From: Cellulosimicrobium sp. CUA-896
GTDB lineage: Bacteria; Actinomycetota; Actinomycetes; Actinomycetales; Cellulomonadaceae
Reading direction: 5' to 3'
Assembly: GCF_001942335.1 (NCBI RefSeq)
Contig: NZ_MKKH01000077.1
Span: 1-64,000, forward strand
Length of the DNA stretch: 64,000 nt
The translations under genes and the position numbers were made by a program. Under the pieces are notes generated by a model. It did no database searches. It had not been told where the DNA came from and saw nothing but the letters and a program-made list of their open reading frames with translations. Positions 37,209 through 45,426 of this stretch are shown piece by piece. The first letter of the stretch is position 1. Each line of letters starts with the position of its first letter.

Positions 37209-38646
37209 TCAGGCGGTGCCGGTGACCATCCAGCGGGTGCCGCGGGCGCGGAGCCCCGTGGTGACGGCGCGTGCGGCCATGAAGACCCCCGCGAAGGCGA
37301 GCCAGAGCCACGCGAGCCCCGTCGCGCCGTCGGGCGCCCAGTGCCGGACGGCGAGCGCGAACGGCGCGTAGACCGCGAGCGTCACCATGCCGGCCCACGC
37401 GAGGAAGCGGCCGTCGCCGGCGCCGATGAGGACGCCGTCGAGGACGAAGACCCACCCCGCCATGGGCATGAGCGCGCCGCACACGGCCATGCCGAGCGCG
37501 ACGGCGAGGCGCACCTCGGGGTCGGTCGTGAACAGCAGGGCGAACCACCAGCCGCCCGCCGCCATGACGACGCCGATGACGGCTCCTGCCGCGACGCCCC
37601 ACTGGAGCGTGCGGCGCAGGACGGCGCGGACGCGGGGGACGTCGTCGCGCCGAGCCCGTGCCCGACGAGCGCCTGCGCAGCGATGGCGAGCGCGTCGAGC
37701 GCGAACGCGGCGAGCCCCCACACGGAGCTCACGACCTGGTAGCCCGCGAGCGTGACCTCGCCGAGGCCGGTGGCGACGAACACGGTGAGCAGGATCGCCA
37801 GCCGCAGGGACAGCGTGCGGACGAAGAGCGGGACGCCGGCCCGGGCGTGGCCCAGATGCCTCCTGCGGCGGGGCGCAGGGCGGCGCCGCGGCGTCGGGCG
37901 CCGCGGACGACGACCGCGACGAGGACGGCGCCCATGGTGAGCTGGGCGACGGCGGTGCCGATGCCGGAGCCCGCGATGCCGAGCCCGGCGCCGTAGACGA
38001 GCACGACGTTGAGGACCGCGTTGAGGGTGGCGCCGCCGGCGGCCACCCACAGGGGCGTGCGGGTGTCCTGGAGGCCGCGGAGCACGCCGGTGGACGCGAG
38101 GACGAGCAGCATGCCGGGCAGGCCGAGCGCGGACCAGCGCAGGTAGACGACGGCGTGGCCGGCGACGTCGCCCGTGCCGCCCATCGCGCCGACCGCCCAC
38201 GGCGCGGCGATCCACAGGGCGGCGGCGAGCGCGACGCCGAGACCGAGCGCGAGCCACAGGCCGTCGACGCCGGACTGGAGCGCCTCACGCTCCTGTCCCG
38301 CACCGAGGCGGCGCGCGACCGCGGCGGTGGTCGCGTACGCGAGGAAGACGCACAGGCCGACCAGGGTGACGAGCAGCGTCGAGGCGAGCGAGAGGCCGGC
38401 GAGCTGGGCGGTCCCGAGGTGGCCCACCACGGCCGAGTCGACGAGGACGAACAGCGGCTCCGCGACGAGGGCGCCGAGCGCCGGGACGGCCAGCGCGAGG
38501 ATCTGCCGGTCGAGCGCGGATCGCCGGCCACGGCCTGTGGATGGCTCGGCGCGGCGAGGCCCGGCGGGTGAAGGACGGGTGTCCGGCGGCGGGCCGGAGG
38601 GTCTCCGGCGTGTCGTCGGCGTGTCGTCGGACTTTCTTTCGTCCAC
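37209..38646 (-). CDS. MATE-family efflux transporter, DinF type (two frame breaks)
   Basis: 479 aa repaired, twelve helices. DRQILALAVPALGALVAEPLFVLVDSAVVGHLG is split here only by reading: the stretch ALAVPALGALVAEPLF then VDSAVVGHLGTAQLAG is the MATE/DinF opening. LRGLQDTRTPLW and ALQWGVAAG-type helices follow. Breaks near 37855 (one G restores WATARAGVPLFV) and near 37650 (GCGGAC restores GADDVPRVRAVLRRT). The GTG start at 38646 sits within the run of DnaA-box-like motifs that leads to dnaB. Exports drugs or organic cations against Na+ or H+; substrate unknown. Confidence 0.87.
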
Positions 38647-38979
38647 ACCCTTGAGGGTAGTGAATGCGCTGGTCACCGGCCGTGCCAGGAGTTGTACACA
38701 GGAGAATTCCCCAGTTGTCCACATGGTTGTCCACCGGGTGTGCACAGCGCGCGGCGGTGTGTCCACAGGATCGCGGGTGACTGTCCACGATCCTGTGCAC
38801 AGGGCTGTTTGCCGTCCGCGCGATCCGGCCTCTACTGTCGCGGGGTCGTGTCTGCCGGGACGGGAGGCGCGGCCACCGGGACAGTCGTGTGGGTGGCCCG
38901 CTGTAGAACACGTGTACGACGCGGGTGAGGCCCGCTGCCGGGCCTGGTGGCCTCGGCGAGCCGGGGGAGCGAGGGGCGC
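38647..38979. other. dnaB upstream region with DnaA-box-like cluster
   Basis: No gene. From 38639 to 38803 there are a perfect TTGTCCACA (38715-38723), single-mismatch versions TTGTACACA (38692), TTGTCCACC (38727), GTGTCCACA (38759) and TCGTCCACA (38639), and looser ones CTGTCCACG (38781), TGTGCACAG (38739) and a perfect CCTGTGCACAGG palindrome (38792-38803). TTGTCCACA is the high-GC actinobacterial DnaA box. The rest, up to the dnaB ribosome-binding site, shows nothing clear. Confidence 0.6.
38715..38723 (+). promoter_or_regulatory. DnaA box (perfect)
   Basis: TTGTCCACA, exact actinobacterial DnaA-box consensus, in the centre of a group of seven or eight related 9-mers. Confidence 0.7.
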
Positions 38980-41900
38980 ATGTCGATCGAGGAGCTCGAG
39001 GACAGCTACGGGGGGTCCGGCCCGTCGTCGGCGTTCGACCGCACGCCGCCGCAGGACGTCGCGGCCGAGATGAGCGTCCTGGGCGGCATGCTGCTGTCGA
39101 AGGACGCGATCGCCGACGTCATCGAGCAGATCCGCGGCTCGGACTTCTACCGCCCCGCGCACGAGGTCATCTACGAGTCGATCATCGACCTCTACGGCCG
39201 TGGCGAGCCGGCCGACGCCATCACCGTCGTCGCGGAGCTGACGCGGCGTGGCGAGCTCCAGCGCATCGGCGGCGCCCCGTACCTCCACGACCTCATGGCC
39301 GGCGTCCCCACCGCCGCCAACGCCGGCTACTACGCCCGGATCGTGCGCGAGCGCGCGGTGCTGCGCCGCCTGGTCGAGGCCGGCACGCGCATCGTCCAGC
39401 TCGGCTACGCGACCGACGGCGGCGACGTCGACGACATCGTCAACAACGCCCAGGCCGAGGTCTACGCCGTCACCGAGCGGCGCACCACCGAGGACTACCT
39501 GCCGCTGTCGGAGATCCTCGGCCCCACGTTCGACGAGATCGAGGCCGCGCAGGGCCGCGGCGAGGGCATGACCGGCGTCCCGACGGGGTACTCCGACTTC
39601 GACCGCCTGACGAACGGTCTGCACCCGGGACAGATGGTCGTCGTCGCGGCGCGTCCGGCCATCGGCAAGGCTCTTGCCCTCGACACACCGCTCCCGACGC
39701 CGACCGGGTGGACGACGATGGGCGACGTCGCCGTCGGTGACCTGCTGCTCACGGCCGACGGGACGCCGACGGGTGTCGTCGCGGCCACCGACGTGATGGT
39801 CGACCGCCCCTGCTACGAGGTCGAGCTCGACGACGGCACGGTCATCGTCGCGGACGCGTGGCACCAGTGGGTCACGTCGACCCGTGCGCAGCGTCGCCGC
39901 GTGAGCAGCGGAGAGACGCCCGAGTCAGCGGTGCGCACGACGGAGGAGCTCGCCGCCACGGTGCGGTGTGCCACCGCCGACCAGCGCGCGAACCACTCGA
40001 TCGCGACGACAGCCGCCCTCGCGCTCCCCGAGGCGGATCTGCCGATCCACCCGTACGCGCTCGGTGTGTGGCTGGGCGACGGCAGCTCCCGGCGCGCGGA
40101 GTTCACCTCCGCCGACCCCGAGATCGCGATGCGGATCGAAGGTCTCGGCTACGCGGTCGATCCGACGGACGGGCAGCTCCGCGCCCTGGGGATGCCGTCG
40201 ACCGCCCACGTCCCCGCGGCGTACCTCCGGGCGAGCGAGAACCAGCGCCGTGAGCTCCTCGCCGGGCTGCTCGACACGGACGGGACGGTGAACCCCACCG
40301 GCAGCGTCCAGATCGCGTTGACCAACGAGCGTCTCGCGACGGACGTCCGCGAGCTGGTCCACTCGCTCGGTTACCGCACCGGCTGGTCGACGAAGTCGGT
40401 GAAGGGCCGGAGCGCGGCGTCGTCCACGGCGTACACGATCACGTTCACGACGGAGGACGACGTGTTCGCGCTGGAGCGCAAGCGCCTCGTCCACAAGGAA
40501 CGTCGACGCCCCGGCACCGCACGGCTGACCTCACGGTTCGTCGTCGACGTGCGTCGGGTCGAGTCCGTGCCGGTGCGCTGCGTGGAGGTCGAGCACCCCT
40601 CTCACCTGTACCTCGCGGGCCGGTCGATGGTCCCGACGCACAACTCGGTGCTCGGCATCAACGTCGCGACGCACGCGGCGGTGCACCACCAGATGGCGTC
40701 CGTCATCTTCTCCCTGGAGATGAGCCGCAACGAGATCACGATGCGTATGCTCGCCGCCGAGGCGAAGGTGCCGCTGACCCGGATGCGCTCGGGAAAGATG
40801 GACGACGGCGACTGGCAGAAGCTTGCCGGCACGATGGGCAAGGTCGCCGAGGCGCCGCTGTTCATCGACGACTCGCCGAACATGTCGCTCATGGAGATCC
40901 GGGCCAAGTGCCGACGGCTCAAGCAGCGGCACGATCTCAAGCTCGTGGTCATCGACTACCTCCAGCTCATGTCGTCCGGGAAGCGCGTCGAGTCGCGTCA
41001 GCAGGAGGTCTCCGAGTTCTCCCGTGCGCTCAAGCTGCTCGCGAAGGAGCTGGAAGTCCCGGTCATCGCGATCTCGCAGCTGAACCGTGGTCCGGAGCAG
41101 CGCGGCGACAAGAAACCGCAGATGAGCGACCTGCGTGAGTCCGGCTGCTTCCCCGAGGACACGAAGATCCTGCGCGCCGACACGGGTGCCGAGACCACGC
41201 TGGGCGAGCTGTTCGCGCTCAACGCCAAGGACGTGCCGGTCTGGGCGCTCAACGACCGGCTCCAGTACGTGCGCCGTCACCTCACGCACGTGTTCCCCAC
41301 GGGCGTGAAGCCGGTCTTCCGGATGCGCCTGTCCTCCGGCAAGGAGGTCGAGGCGACGGCGAACCACCCGTTCCTCACCTACGACGGCTGGACGGCCCTC
41401 GGCGATCTGGAGGTGGGCTCGCGCATCGGTGTGCCGCGCCACGTCCCCGGCCCGGAGAAGAACGTGGAGTGGGACGACCACAAGGTCGTCATGCTTGCGC
41501 ACCTCCTGGGGGACGGCTCGTTCGTCGAGCGTCAGCCCATCCGGTACGCGTCGATCGACGAGCGGAACCTGTCGGCCGTCAGCGACGCAGCGACGGCGTT
41601 CGGGATCACACCGGTGCGGGACGAGTACGCCGCCGCGCGGTGCACCACGCTGCGGCTGCCGGCGCCGTACCGCCTGACGCACGGCAAGCGGAACCCGATC
41701 GCCGAGTGGCTCGACGACATGGGGCTCTTCGGCGCGCGAAGCCACGAGAAGTTCATCCCGACGAGCGTCTTCCACCTGCCCAAGCATCAGATCGCGCTGT
41801 TCATCAAGCACATCTGGGCGACAGACGGCTCGGTGACCGTGAACAAGAACGGCCGCGGCGGACGCATCTACTACGCCTCGACCTCGCGCGGGCTCGTCGA

Positions 41901-42606
41901 CGGCCTGTCGCGGCTCCTGCTCCGGTTCGGCATCTCCACGCGCGTTCGTCGGACGACGCCCAAGGGCGCCTACCGGACCGGCTGGACGCTCGACGTCAGC
42001 GGTGTGGACGACCAGCGCCGCTTCCTCCAGGAGATCGGTGTCCACGGCGACCGCGGCGACACCGCCGAGAAGCTGTTGGCGATCATCCGGGACACGCGGC
42101 CGAACACGAACGTCGACACGGTTCCTCGCCAGGTCTGGGAGGACGTGCGCGAGCTGCTCGTGGAACGTGAGATGACGCAGCGGGAGTTTGCCGCGGCGAT
42201 CGACACGCAGTTCTGCGGAAGCGCCCTGTGGAAGAGCGCTCCGTCGCGACACCGCCTGACCAAGATCGCGTCCGTCCTCGAGAGCGAGAAGCTCGAGATC
42301 ATGGCGATGAACGACCTGCTGTGGGACGAGGTCGTCGCCATCGAACCGGTGGGGGAGAAGCAGGTGTTCGACGCGACCGTGGTCGACGCCCATAACTTCG
42401 TCGCGAACGGGATCGCGGCTCACAACAGCATCGAGCAGGACGCCGACGTCGTGATCCTCCTCCACCGCGAGGACGCGTACGAGAAGGAGTCGCCACGAGC
42501 CGGCGAAGCCGACCTCATCGTGGCGAAGCACCGTAACGGCCCGACGGACACCATCACCGTGGCGTTCCAGGGGCACTACCAACGCTTCGCCGACATGCAG
42601 ATGTAG
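38980..42606 (+). CDS. dnaB: Replicative DNA helicase DnaB with two inteins
   Basis: 1208-aa precursor; removing both inteins leaves about 456 aa, the normal size of DnaB, the hexameric replication-fork helicase. Extein landmarks: N-terminal PPQDVAAEMSVLGGMLLS, the Walker A strand VVVAARPAIGK|SVLGINVATHAA interrupted by intein 1, Walker B LVVIDYLQLMS, AISQLNRGPEQR, and MSDLRESG|SIEQDADVVILLHRE interrupted by intein 2. ATG 38980 (residue 12 of a GTG-started frame at 38947) matches the family start. Without splicing of both inteins the ATP site and a downstream motif are split, so splicing is essential. The frame is unbroken throughout. Confidence 0.96.
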   Translation: MSIEELEDSYGGSGPSSAFDRTPPQDVAAEMSVLGGMLLSKDAIADVIEQIRGSDFYRPAHEVIYESIIDLYGRGEPADAITVVAELTRRGELQRIGGAPYLHDLMAGVPTAANAGYYARIVRERAVLRRLVEAGTRIVQLGYATDGGDVDDIVNNAQAEVYAVTERRTTEDYLPLSEILGPTFDEIEAAQGRGEGMTGVPTGYSDFDRLTNGLHPGQMVVVAARPAIGKALALDTPLPTPTGWTTMGDVAVGDLLLTADGTPTGVVAATDVMVDRPCYEVELDDGTVIVADAWHQWVTSTRAQRRRVSSGETPESAVRTTEELAATVRCATADQRANHSIATTAALALPEADLPIHPYALGVWLGDGSSRRAEFTSADPEIAMRIEGLGYAVDPTDGQLRALGMPSTAHVPAAYLRASENQRRELLAGLLDTDGTVNPTGSVQIALTNERLATDVRELVHSLGYRTGWSTKSVKGRSAASSTAYTITFTTEDDVFALERKRLVHKERRRPGTARLTSRFVVDVRRVESVPVRCVEVEHPSHLYLAGRSMVPTHNSVLGINVATHAAVHHQMASVIFSLEMSRNEITMRMLAAEAKVPLTRMRSGKMDDGDWQKLAGTMGKVAEAPLFIDDSPNMSLMEIRAKCRRLKQRHDLKLVVIDYLQLMSSGKRVESRQQEVSEFSRALKLLAKELEVPVIAISQLNRGPEQRGDKKPQMSDLRESGCFPEDTKILRADTGAETTLGELFALNAKDVPVWALNDRLQYVRRHLTHVFPTGVKPVFRMRLSSGKEVEATANHPFLTYDGWTALGDLEVGSRIGVPRHVPGPEKNVEWDDHKVVMLAHLLGDGSFVERQPIRYASIDERNLSAVSDAATAFGITPVRDEYAAARCTTLRLPAPYRLTHGKRNPIAEWLDDMGLFGARSHEKFIPTSVFHLPKHQIALFIKHIWATDGSVTVNKNGRGGRIYYASTSRGLVDGLSRLLLRFGISTRVRRTTPKGAYRTGWTLDVSGVDDQRRFLQEIGVHGDRGDTAEKLLAIIRDTRPNTNVDTVPRQVWEDVRELLVEREMTQREFAAAIDTQFCGSALWKSAPSRHRLTKIASVLESEKLEIMAMNDLLWDEVVAIEPVGEKQVFDATVVDAHNFVANGIAAHNSIEQDADVVILLHREDAYEKESPRAGEADLIVAKHRNGPTDTITVAFQGHYQRFADMQM
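39670..40644 (+). other. Intein 1 of DnaB, class 3 type, with LAGLIDADG endonuclease
   Basis: 325 aa inserted right after the Walker A Lys (ARPAIGK / S). It begins with Ala (ALALDTPLPTPTGWTTMGDV) rather than Cys or Ser. Block B has HQW (ADAWHQWVTS), block F has a Cys (VPVRCVEVEHPSHLYLAG) and block G ends PTHN with Ser as the next extein residue. Trp, block-F Cys and block-G Thr are the WCT set that defines class 3 inteins, which start splicing from the block-F Cys. YALGVWLGDGS and LLAGLLDTDGTV are the two LAGLIDADG helices of a homing endonuclease. Confidence 0.9.
41146..42426 (+). other. Intein 2 of DnaB, class 1 type, with LAGLIDADG endonuclease
   Basis: 427 aa between RESG and SIEQD, the insertion point also used by the Synechocystis DnaB intein. 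Starts with Cys1 (CFPEDTKILRADTG), block B TANHPFLTYDGW with the conserved His, and block G ending GIAAHN with Ser as +1 residue: a complete class 1 set. LAHLLGDGSF and FIKHIWATDGSV are LAGLIDADG motifs, so the homing endonuclease may be active. Confidence 0.93.
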
Positions 42607-42636: not shown

Positions 42637-45426
42637 TCACCGCGCTCCGAGCGCCGCCGAGAGATCGCGCCGGGAGGTGACGCCGAGCTTCCCGAAGACT
42701 TTGCGCAGGTGCCACTCGACGGTGCGCGGGCTCAGGAACATCGTCGCCGCGATCTCCGGGTTGGTGCGCCCCGCCATGGCGAGCCGGGCCACCTGCTCCT
42801 CCTGCGGTGTGAGCTCCTCCTCCGAGCCCGCGACCCGCTTGCGGACCGTCTCGCCCGTCGCCATGAGCTCCCGGCCGGCGCGCTCGGCGAACGCCACCGC
42901 TCCCATGGCGACGAACGCCTCGTGCGCGTCACGCAGCCGCTCCCGGGCGTCGACCCGCCTGCCCTCGCGTCTCAGCCACTCGCCGAGCAGCAGGTTCGCT
43001 CGTGCCACGCCCATCCCGACGCGACCGCGTCCGAAGTGCTCGACGGCAGCGATGTAGTGCGTCTCCGCAGTGCCGTCCCTCGCCGTCAGCGCCTGAGCGA
43101 GGGCCTGCGCGCCGAGCGCCCAGGGGGTCCCCGAGGCGGACGTCCGCACCGACAGCCGACCGGCCGCCTCCTGCGCGGCCTCGTGCTCGCCGAGCCGCAC
43201 CGCTGCCTCGACGAGCTCGCCGAGGCTCCAGTGGTACATGGAGAGGTCTGTGTAGCGGGTCGCCTCCGCCGCGGACGCCATCGCCTGCTCGGGATCACCG
43301 AGACCGTTGTAGAGCACCGCTCGCGTGTACGCGGCGACGCCGAGAAGACGCCCGACGCCACGCTCGTGCGCGTCGCGGCGAAGCCTTCCGATCGCGTCGA
43401 GCGCCTCCGGTTCGCGCCCCAGGTGCGCCGCCATCACCGCCCCGGTGGCGAGGAACGTCTCGACGCCCGTGACCTGGCCCGTCGCGGACGACTCCTCCTG
43501 GAGCGCGCGTGCCTCGTCCAGCCGACCGGCGAAGACGAGCGCTCCCGCCCGGTACGACAAGGCGGCGGGCAGGATCGACAGCGTGCCGGTGGTCCGGGAC
43601 CAGAGGACGGCCTGCCCGGTCACGCGGATCCACGACTCGAGGTCGTACAGCTCCATCGACACCATCGCGGCGAGCCACAGGAGGCGCAGGTCGTCGGTCG
43701 CGGTCAGGGTCTGGACCGCGCGGGACAGCAGCGGGAACCCGGTCGCCGGGCCGTCGAGGCCCCACCGTGTCAGGCCCTGGAGGAACAGGCCGGGTGCGTC
43801 GTCGGCGGTGGGCGCGGTGGCGGCGGCACGGGCGGACTCCTGCAGGGCCTCGGGTCGACCGAGACGCCCGGACCACAGCGCGGACCCGAGTGCGGCGAGA
43901 TAGGTCTCGCGAGCCGCCGTGGGTTCGAGCGGGGCGAGCCGGGCGGCGGCCTCCAGCAGCGCCGTGCCCGCACCGAGGCCCGGGTTGAGCAGGTAGGCGG
44001 TCTGCGCGCGCAGCCGTGCGACCTGCGCGCGCTGCAGCCCGTCGAGCGGACCCCGCTCAGCGGTGACGAGAAGGCCGGAGACCGCGGCCGGCTCGCCGGA
44101 GTCGAGCCGGGCGAGCGCGGCGGACAGCGCCCGTCCTGCGCGTCGGGCCGGGTCCGGGCTCAGGACCACCGAGCGTTCGAGGAACGCCGCTGCCGCCGCT
44201 CGTCCGCCCCTGGCGAGCGCGCGGTCCGCCGAGGCCTCGAGCTCGGCGGCCACCGACTCGTCGGGATCGATCGTGGCGTGCGCGCGGTGCCAGGCGCGCC
44301 GGTCGGGTTCGAGCCGCGGGTCGGTCACCTCGGCGAGGGCGCCGTGGACACGCCGGAGGGTGCGCGGGTCCGCCGAGCGCCAGGAGGCGGAGCGGACGAG
44401 AGGGTGGCGGAACCGCACCCGAGGGCCGAGCTCCAGGAGCCCTTCAGCCTCGGCCGCCGCGGCTGCGGCGGGTGGGACACCGAGCACGTCGAGTGCGCGC
44501 AGGAGGAGCGAGGAGTCACCGACAGGCTCCACCGCGGCCGCCAGCACGGCCGTCCTCGCGTCCGGGCCGAGCGCGTCGAGCCGCCGCCGGAACCCCTCCT
44601 CGACCCGGCTGGTCAGTCGGCGGTCCCTGCTCTCGCCGAACCCGAACGCCAGCTCGGCGACGGGGACCCCCCGGGGAAGCTCGACGAGCGCCAGCGGGTT
44701 GCCCCGCGTCTCCGCGACGATCCGGTCGCGGACGGCAGCATCGATCGGCCCAGCGAGCGAGGACGTCAGCAGCGCGTGAGCGGCCTCGGCGTCGAGGCCG
44801 TCGACGACCAGCTCCGGCAGGCCGGTGAACGCGTCGTGGGCCGCAGGGGTGCGTGCCGCGACGACGAGGCCGACCGACTCCGCGTCGAGCCGGCGCGCCA
44901 CGAACCCGAGGATCAGGGACGAGCTCCGGTCGAGCCACTGGGCGTCGTCCACCAGGCAGAGCAGCGGTGTGCCGGCTCCGGCCTCGGCGAGGAGCGCGAG
45001 CACCGCCATGCCCAGCACGAGCGGCTCGGGCGGTGCGCCCGACGCGAGACCGAAGGCGGTGCGCAGGGCGGTCGTGTGCACCTCCGAGAGCCGGGCTGCG
45101 TGCTGCATCAGCGGCGCGCACACCTGCTGCAGGGCGGAGTTCGCCAGCTCGGACTCCTCCTCGACCCCGGCGGCGCGCACCACCTCGACGGCGGTGGCTT
45201 GCGCGGCCGCGAGGTCCAGCAGGACGCTCTTGCCCACACCCGGTTCTCCCCGCACCACGAGCACCCGGCTGCGGCCGCCGCGCACGTCACGGAGCAGCTG
45301 GTCGAGGACGTCGCGCTCGCGCCGCCTGCCGTGCAGCTCCACCGGGGAGCCCGTTCCGACGCGTCGGCCGCCGCGGGCACCGGGCCGGTGCCGCAGCGGC
45401 TCTCGCGCCGTGGTCGAGGTGTCCAT
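42637..45426 (-). CDS. LuxR-family LAL regulator (large ATP-binding) 1
   Basis: 929 aa. N-terminal AAA/STAND ATPase with Walker A GEPGVGKSVLLD and Walker B LLCLVDDAQWLDR, a long TPR-like helical middle (400-840), and a C-terminal LuxR helix-turn-helix (ELTPQEEQVARLAMAGRTNPEIA). LAL proteins activate transcription of nearby catabolic or secondary-metabolite genes when bound to ATP and an inducer. It converges with dnaB, and its 5' side faces the SRPBCC gene. It is a clear paralogue of the LAL protein at 50.8 kb. Confidence 0.93.
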   Translation of the reverse strand: MDTSTTAREPLRHRPGARGGRRVGTGSPVELHGRRRERDVLDQLLRDVRGGRSRVLVVRGEPGVGKSVLLDLAAAQATAVEVVRAAGVEEESELANSALQQVCAPLMQHAARLSEVHTTALRTAFGLASGAPPEPLVLGMAVLALLAEAGAGTPLLCLVDDAQWLDRSSSLILGFVARRLDAESVGLVVAARTPAAHDAFTGLPELVVDGLDAEAAHALLTSSLAGPIDAAVRDRIVAETRGNPLALVELPRGVPVAELAFGFGESRDRRLTSRVEEGFRRRLDALGPDARTAVLAAAVEPVGDSSLLLRALDVLGVPPAAAAAAEAEGLLELGPRVRFRHPLVRSASWRSADPRTLRRVHGALAEVTDPRLEPDRRAWHRAHATIDPDESVAAELEASADRALARGGRAAAAAFLERSVVLSPDPARRAGRALSAALARLDSGEPAAVSGLLVTAERGPLDGLQRAQVARLRAQTAYLLNPGLGAGTALLEAAARLAPLEPTAARETYLAALGSALWSGRLGRPEALQESARAAATAPTADDAPGLFLQGLTRWGLDGPATGFPLLSRAVQTLTATDDLRLLWLAAMVSMELYDLESWIRVTGQAVLWSRTTGTLSILPAALSYRAGALVFAGRLDEARALQEESSATGQVTGVETFLATGAVMAAHLGREPEALDAIGRLRRDAHERGVGRLLGVAAYTRAVLYNGLGDPEQAMASAAEATRYTDLSMYHWSLGELVEAAVRLGEHEAAQEAAGRLSVRTSASGTPWALGAQALAQALTARDGTAETHYIAAVEHFGRGRVGMGVARANLLLGEWLRREGRRVDARERLRDAHEAFVAMGAVAFAERAGRELMATGETVRKRVAGSEEELTPQEEQVARLAMAGRTNPEIAATMFLSPRTVEWHLRKVFGKLGVTSRRDLSAALGAR

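Follow-up and report, generated by a model that had tools for sequence, protein, structure and literature searches.

A class 3 intein in the DnaB P-loop of Cellulosimicrobium with a truncated and probably decaying homing endonuclease domain

The dnaB gene and its two inteins

The window, a stretch of 64,000 nucleotides from Cellulosimicrobium sp. CUA-896, is part of contig C76 of a 3.7 Mb assembly (78 contigs, 83% complete). Its dnaB frame (38947-42606, +) is a single ORF of 1219 aa that is interrupted twice and shows Pfam DnaB and DnaB_C matches; translation more likely starts at the ATG at 38980. The N-terminal extein (38947-39669, +) ends within Walker A at AARPAIGK. It is followed by intein 1 (39670-40644, +; 325 aa), a class 3 intein at the DnaB P-loop site that is devoid of the zinc-ribbon-like insert described below. 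The middle extein (40645-41145, +) extends from the Ser+1 residue (SVLGINVA) to DLRESG. At this point intein 2 (41146-42426, +; 427 aa) occupies the DLRESG^ site in the H4 loop, and the C-terminal extein (42427-42606, +), SIEQDAD...DMQM plus the stop codon, completes the gene. Intein 2, which lies in the same ORF and was missed in the earlier note on this DNA, belongs to class 1: it possesses Cys1, a TANHPF motif, a terminal AAHN and a LAGLIDADG domain (Pfam Intein_splicing 7e-22, LAGLIDADG_3 4e-25). At its site we found 427, 426, 425, 383, 382, 370, 339, 331 or 308 aa in relatives, and because of this variation in length intein 2 also seems to decay by deletion.

The source genome contained one match to the DnaB N-domain, within the limits of its 83% completeness. 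A second, weak DnaB_C match (E 3e-5) was located in a 726-aa frame on contig C9. Upstream of dnaB, at about 37209-38620 (-) of the window, a gene for a MatE-family transporter was split over three reading frames. The pieces gave Pfam E values of 1e-27, 2e-4 and 5e-4, the last two below the cut-off, and represent either assembly frameshifts or a broken gene. A large regulator with AAA_16 and LuxR-type (GerE) domains (42637-45426, -) is convergent with dnaB.

The translation of intein 1 runs without stops from ALALDTP to MVPTHN. Its flanks, AARPAIGK and SVLGINVA, place it between the Lys and Ser residues of the Walker A GKS, the position of P-loop (DnaB-b) inteins, and the empty alleles of G002, G003 and G015 read GKSVLG at this site. 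The N-terminal splicing half (39670-39882, +), delimited by sequence, alignment and an AF2 model, comprises blocks A and B with Ala1, Asp62, His65 and Trp67, and includes Cys48 (39811-39813). The C-terminal half (40537-40644, +) contains Cys304 of block F (40579-40581) and Thr323-His324-Asn325 of block G. Residue 1 is thus Ala and not Cys, Ser or Thr. Trp67 in ADAWHQW aligned with W(B:12) of 6bs8 and 6rix, Cys304 in PVRCVEV with C(F:4) of the solved class 3 inteins, and Thr323, in the terminal PTHN that precedes Ser+1, is T(G:5). The Ala start, the GK|S split, the Trp in HQW, the Cys in RCVEVEH and the Thr in PTHN had all been listed in the earlier note and were confirmed by translation. Its view that the element is of class 3 and sits in Walker A of DnaB holds as well. 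The residues are in register with those of solved relatives (phmmer E 2e-44 for MchDnaB1, 8e-41 for Msm DnaBi1), the alignment with MchDnaB1 covers residues 1-72 and 291-325, and the block F Cys falls within the WCT column of the solved class 3 inteins. Since Ala1 and the WCT signature were present in 106 of 106 distinct relatives, a chance origin of the signature is excluded. Ala1, the WCT signature and homology together rule out class 1 or class 2.

Intein 1 most likely splices normally, as judged from its sequence. A pseudogene was ruled out by the intact splicing residues and by the low dN/dS of the splicing domain (0.07-0.09 in three pairs of the window copy with genus-mates). From the WCT signature and homology, Cys304 would attack the Lys-Ala1 bond, the acyl group would then pass to Ser+1, and Asn325 would cyclise, rebuilding the Walker A GKS. 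In the M. smegmatis and M. leprae homologues, class 3 splicing proceeds via a block F branched intermediate and is abolished by mutation of Cys F:4 (PMC5222942). It is plausible that splicing of intein 1 gates replication. This is a reasonable proposal because a single DnaB N-domain match was found in the genome and stress-dependent splicing has been demonstrated for the M. smegmatis homologue (PMC6195587).

Cys48 deserves attention in this context. In M. smegmatis DnaBi1 a disulfide between Cys48 and the block F Cys inhibits splicing, and replacement of Cys48 by Thr or six other residues abolished it (PMC6195587). The same work terms Cys48 non-conserved; among our 106 relatives the position was occupied by Cys in 98 and by Thr in eight (L015, L031, L033, L037, L043, L044, L055 and G133). 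Because the intein 1 of the window contains both Cys48 and the block F Cys, we predict by analogy that its splicing is redox-sensitive. If the relatives with Thr48 splice, something must compensate for Cys48. These eight natural variants could show whether splicing can be uncoupled from the redox switch.

The endonuclease domain and its cysteine-rich insert

Between the splicing halves lies a homing endonuclease (HEN) domain of the LAGLIDADG type. The first motif, LGVWLGDG (residues 131-138; 40060-40083, +), contains Asp137 and the second, LLAGLLDTDG (residues 196-205; 40255-40284, +), contains Asp204; in other words, both motifs and both acidic catalytic residues are present. To this extent the earlier statement that 325 aa accommodate both motifs is correct. 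The first half, however, is truncated, and the motifs are spaced by 57 residues compared with 136-144 in the measured full relatives. Pfam recognised only the second half (LAGLIDADG_3 9.7e-7, Hom_end 1.5e-6).

What the window copy has lost becomes apparent from its relatives. Our alignment of intein 1 had 84 rows: the genus survey supplied 13, and 71 came from the 79 genome_contigs loci, eight loci from the same genomes having been removed. A search for relatives supplied the best 80 of 109, a sample that leans toward window-like copies, a bias which the family survey described below does not have. With 49 rows, forms of 400-417 aa were the commonest collected. In most long forms the stretch between the LAGLIDADG motifs is longer by about 80 residues, which include eight cysteines in the pattern CxxC...C...C and CPxC...CxxC. 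In the model of the full form of C. funkei (L026, 408 aa, mean pLDDT 92.6) the strands of the first half are located at residues 144-147, 162-165 and 174-179; the cysteine-rich insert follows at about 186-247 and is succeeded by the next helix. The AF2 model of the window intein (pLDDT 91.0) has a complete second LAGLIDADG half and, from residue 113 to residue 204, lacks any strand of three residues or longer. This prediction does not contain the two complete alpha-beta-beta-alpha-beta-beta-alpha halves that would form a DNA saddle. Alignments and models place a deletion scar at 40150-40176 (+), where full relatives have two beta-strands and the eight-Cys double-zinc-ribbon-like insert; the window intein has neither the insert nor these two adjacent strands, a beta-hairpin of the first half. 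The short form is not an assembly artefact, as near-identical forms occur in single-contig genomes (G008, 325 aa; G004, 324 aa).

We call the insert zinc-ribbon-like on the basis of its cysteine pattern and the model, the matches to Pfam families being sub-threshold (DZR_2 E 0.17 and 0.13; Zn_ribbon_6 E 6). When a profile of the full form was searched, ribosomal L32 zinc ribbons matched no better than E 0.4-1. A zinc-sensing role was considered and no evidence for it was found. The insert region of L026 (L026:5001-6224, residues 181-244) showed a match to phrog_1333, a phage family of unknown function (E 3e-4), and a phage source of the insert is possible. When the insert region alone was compared with annotated phages by tblastn, four records were obtained, none below E 0.4.

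Viral relatives differ in what they carry at this place. Of 583 IMG/VR matches, the 80 listed relatives found with full-length alignment provided 77 that could be measured. Among these listed matches the motif spacing was 68-135 residues, so that the 57 residues of the window lie below all of them. A CxRGH...CxxC module, which may be linked to HNH zinc fingers, was present between the LAGLIDADG motifs in 27 of the 77 (loci among L281-L357). One had a single CxxC, one (L334) several CxxC, and 48 had no module. The five annotated phage relatives aligned first also had no zinc-like module. As 48 of the 77 measured viral inteins listed do without one, a zinc-like module is not needed for a LAGLIDADG endonuclease as such. 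Searches for Pfam zinc families at E 1 with three viral CxRGH...CxxC copies and with L334 gave no match. Identity of phage class 3 relatives to intein 1 was 37-42% for the annotated-phage rows listed and 29-55% over the best segment for the IMG/VR matches listed. A recent phage-to-host transfer of the window allele was rejected, the best of the 40 annotated-phage rows listed reaching 42% and all 736 records remaining below 60%.

These observations led us to a wider proposal, which in our judgement could equally well prove right or wrong. Class 3 inteins would have a slot for swappable zinc modules in the first LAGLIDADG half, in the beta4-alpha loop, filled by CxRGH...CxxC or left empty in phages and filled by a double zinc ribbon in actinobacterial DnaB. 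The module would give homing specificity or anchoring; its loss would be the usual first and irreversible step of decay, ahead of the catalytic acids, and the window copy would be freshly stripped. Such a slot offers a testable idea of the way in which the endonucleases of class 3 inteins switch between targets in phage genes and in host dnaB. If it exists, fusions of inteins with zinc fingers would be common in bacteria and phages and not confined to yeast HO/WHO. In the literature searched, which covered few subscription papers, no report of a zinc module inside an intein LAGLIDADG domain was found.

Insert loss, probable relaxation of selection and the homing cycle

In a tree built without the insert columns, the 84 rows comprised 47 with the full insert, 32 with none and five with part of it; the insert-free state requires at least 18 changes, of which well-supported branches force 10. 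When the tree was extended to 94 distinct rows other than minis (53 full, 36 none, five partial), at least 20 changes were required. The rows nearest to the window by path (G005, G013 with 408 aa, and G011) are all full, as are the relatives from Promicromonospora and Isoptericola. Vestiges of the insert occur too: L016 retains half of each cysteine pair, L012 reads CQDGHDTNGT where L029 has CQECHNANGT, G010, a form of 345 aa in which only the zinc-like insert is gone, retains both flanks, and further partial vestiges are found in L023 and L024. All of this argues that the insert was lost from a full ancestor.

Within Cellulosimicrobium the history is less simple. Eight of the nine short forms share one gap length, and the pairs from this genus may therefore be a single event mixed by recombination. 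G009 (short) and G011 (full) are sisters in the tree without any amino-acid difference in the splicing domain, and recombination between alleles within the genus is likely. A genus-level extein tree of 20 rows (G003, L012, L029 and 17 other loci were left out) showed 8 state changes, a number as low as that in 29 of 200 shuffles, and so does not separate loss from re-invasion.

Selection on the HEN was compared in automatically chosen pairs, which replaced hand-picked ones. Each consisted of a stripped row from a maximal stripped clade and the nearest full row, with a full outgroup; 20 pairs were obtained from 22 stripped clades, as L018/L019 and L022 gave none. Unique changes in the HEN core numbered 349 in stripped versus 152 in full copies, with the excess in 18 of the 20 pairs (Wilcoxon p 5e-4); in the splicing domain of the same pairs they numbered 103 versus 96 (p 0.48). 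The two pairs going the opposite way were L014 (7/15) and L021 (16/18). The same full partner recurs in some of these pairs; when reused partners were omitted the HEN core still gave 233 versus 108 (13 of 15 pairs, p 0.006), and with a single Cellulosimicrobium pair 288 versus 136 (14 of 16, p 0.003). Of the 15 hand-picked pairs 12 were pooled, giving 161 versus 98 with the excess in 10 of 12 and L016 (11/12) and L014 (7/15) against. Those left out were G010 (4/3), which has its partner in common with G007, and L018 (12/29) and L010 (9/11), which were not clear sisters and went against the trend. At the codon level (N/S) these 12 pairs gave 98/166 for stripped versus 59/208 for full copies in the HEN (p 2e-4), and 33/114 versus 21/115 in the splicing domain (p 0.17). 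For the window versus G005 the HEN values were 11/14 versus 2/18.

Both catalytic acids were intact in 52 of 53 full rows, in all five partial rows and in 22 of the 36 stripped ones. A Fisher test of this difference gave p 5e-6, which overstates independence because the 14 stripped rows without intact acids are confined to five of the 22 stripped clades. The apparent order, judged from these sequences, is loss of the zinc-like insert first and of the catalytic acids later. In the window itself the HEN dN/dS against three genus-mates was 0.15-0.21. Being well under 1, this value indicates that the domain is not drifting freely, and together with the retention of both Asp residues it means that any decay would be early.

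Alleles at the intein 1 site are diverse even among close relatives. Intein 1 was present in 13 of 17 Cellulosimicrobium genomes; across the 17 its length was 408, 345, 318-325, 141 or 0 aa, and all four combinations of the two intein sites occurred among these genomes (one contig ended before site 2). For the family, 133 further genomes were surveyed, of which 130 had a DnaB match, 129 were examined and 125 were scored: 79 were empty, 23 full, 11 stripped, one partial and 11 mini. Several genera, g7, g9, g14 and g21 among them, exhibited three or four states at once. The mini forms, which have no HEN at all, measure 141-146 aa and were found in 12 genomes. Their linkers are of two kinds, ILTTEE...IGPG and TTE.I...AH.V, which set G107, G133, G080 and G143 apart from the other eight. 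Because of these two kinds, mini-inteins probably arose at least twice in the family.

Some additional elements were noted in these genomes. Two DnaB P-loop inteins, in G065:C1 and G128:C1 (loci L199 and L258), lie in frames that end early (ORFs of 402 and 439 aa), the one of G128 reading ALALDTPCPRRRAG; the early ends could stem from errors in sequencing or from a damaged intein within this essential gene. A 2170-aa frame outside dnaB (G015:C9:45810-47402; L097, L103 and L139) contains three intein 1-like pieces of 35-45% identity and may represent a class 3 intein of a different gene.

The family survey displays, at a single position, the homing cycle that PMC1654191 reportedly describes. 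Alleles that are full, stripped, degenerate, mini or empty coexist at this insertion site in one bacterial family, often within a genus. The cycle can thus be followed as a decay in ordered steps and is open to tests with natural alleles.

The explanation that we favour, and hold to be quite probably correct, is that intein 1 is a splicing-competent class 3 P-loop intein with a decaying HEN, from which the insert and the hairpin have been deleted, so that mobility has most likely been lost or weakened. The deletion of the double-zinc-ribbon-like insert and the adjacent beta3-beta4 hairpin should deprive one side of DNA-binding surface, the remaining HEN would be under relaxed selection, and intein 1 most likely homes poorly or not at all. 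The locus would then represent a mid-stage of the homing cycle, which leads from the full form with its zinc-like insert to the stripped form, loss of LAGLIDADG, the mini-intein and the empty site. The earlier note had called the intein compact and possibly mobile, and a streamlined endonuclease that still works might indeed be suspected from the two acids, the low dN/dS of the HEN, the patchy distribution in the genus (13 of 17) and the existence of zinc-less viral relatives (48 of the 77 measured among the matches listed). We consider this unlikely. The compactness results from deletion, the HEN core of stripped copies evolves faster with an excess of nonsynonymous change, and acids have been lost among them; moreover, the model shows no beta-sheet in the first half, the motif spacing is shorter than in any of the 77 viral relatives measured among the matches listed, and patchiness is equally explained by loss or recombination of other alleles.

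The same dN/dS below 1 could be taken to mean that the residual domain is no longer a nuclease and has been retained for a different function, for instance as a structural aid to splicing or in regulation, the more so as most short forms lose only the zinc slot and its flank and keep the rest of the domain in frame. Yet recent decay from an active state would give the same numbers, and the HEN-less minis of 12 genomes show that the gene can be kept without the domain, which makes retention for such a function a rather improbable account. It is very unlikely that the zinc-less short inteins are ancestral and the full form arose by many gains of the insert. The annotated phage relatives aligned first, five in number, and 48 of the 77 viral loci measured among the matches listed would agree with it, but the partial vestiges in L016, L012, L023 and L024, the many short tips that adjoin full sisters and evolve faster, and the retention of at least seven insert cysteines in 53 distinct full forms do not; these sequences are better explained by one early gain and many later losses. 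Least of all do we believe that intein 1 is a decayed insertion that has ceased to splice: only the decay of the HEN could be cited for it, against the presence of all splicing residues, the low dN/dS of the splicing domain in the window-genus pairs and the fact that intein 1 interrupts the only DnaB N-domain gene found.

Comparison with known inteins

A class 3 intein at the DnaB P-loop and a layout with two inteins are already known, and intein 1 adds another member to a family that has been studied before. The inteins of M. smegmatis DnaBi1, M. leprae DnaB and M. chimaera MchDnaB1 (6bs8, 6own, 6rix, 6riy) share with it the site, Ala1, the WCT residues, the DxxH of block B, Ser+1 and the pair of Cys48 and the block F Cys; identity is 66-68% over the structurally aligned splicing domain. 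These mycobacterial DnaB-b inteins are without an endonuclease (PMC6195587, PMC5050341), whereas intein 1 keeps a truncated LAGLIDADG domain. M. smegmatis DnaB combines the class 3 DnaBi1 in the P-loop with the class 1 DnaBi2 in H4 (PMC6195587), the same layout as here. It differs in that intein 1 of the window has HEN remnants and in that all four combinations of the two sites occur within one genus here.

The direct relatives are the full-length class 3 DnaB P-loop inteins of Actinomycetota. The one of C. funkei (L026, 408 aa) is 86% identical and has the same fold but, unlike the window copy, these forms possess the eight-Cys double-zinc-ribbon-like insert and the strands of the first half. 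Among named relatives the best were from Cellulosimicrobium, with best-segment identities of up to 86% (C. marinum 76%). Phage class 3 inteins, found in terminase, Cas4/RecB-like exonuclease and other hosts, have the same WCT-type ends with LAGLIDADG between the halves. They differ from intein 1 in their host genes, in having another zinc-like module or none, and in their longer motif spacing.

PI-SceI, the VMA1-derived endonuclease, is of class 1. The zinc finger of HO/WHO comes after the intein-like region, while the insert described here lies between the LAGLIDADG motifs. HO and WHO are given as the only known fusions of an intein with a zinc finger in PMC7282813, a statement with which a zinc-ribbon-like insert within an intein LAGLIDADG domain fits awkwardly. 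Compared with these systems, the value of intein 1 appears to lie in the natural allele series around it, which suggests that a step in the death of such genetic parasites is exposed here.
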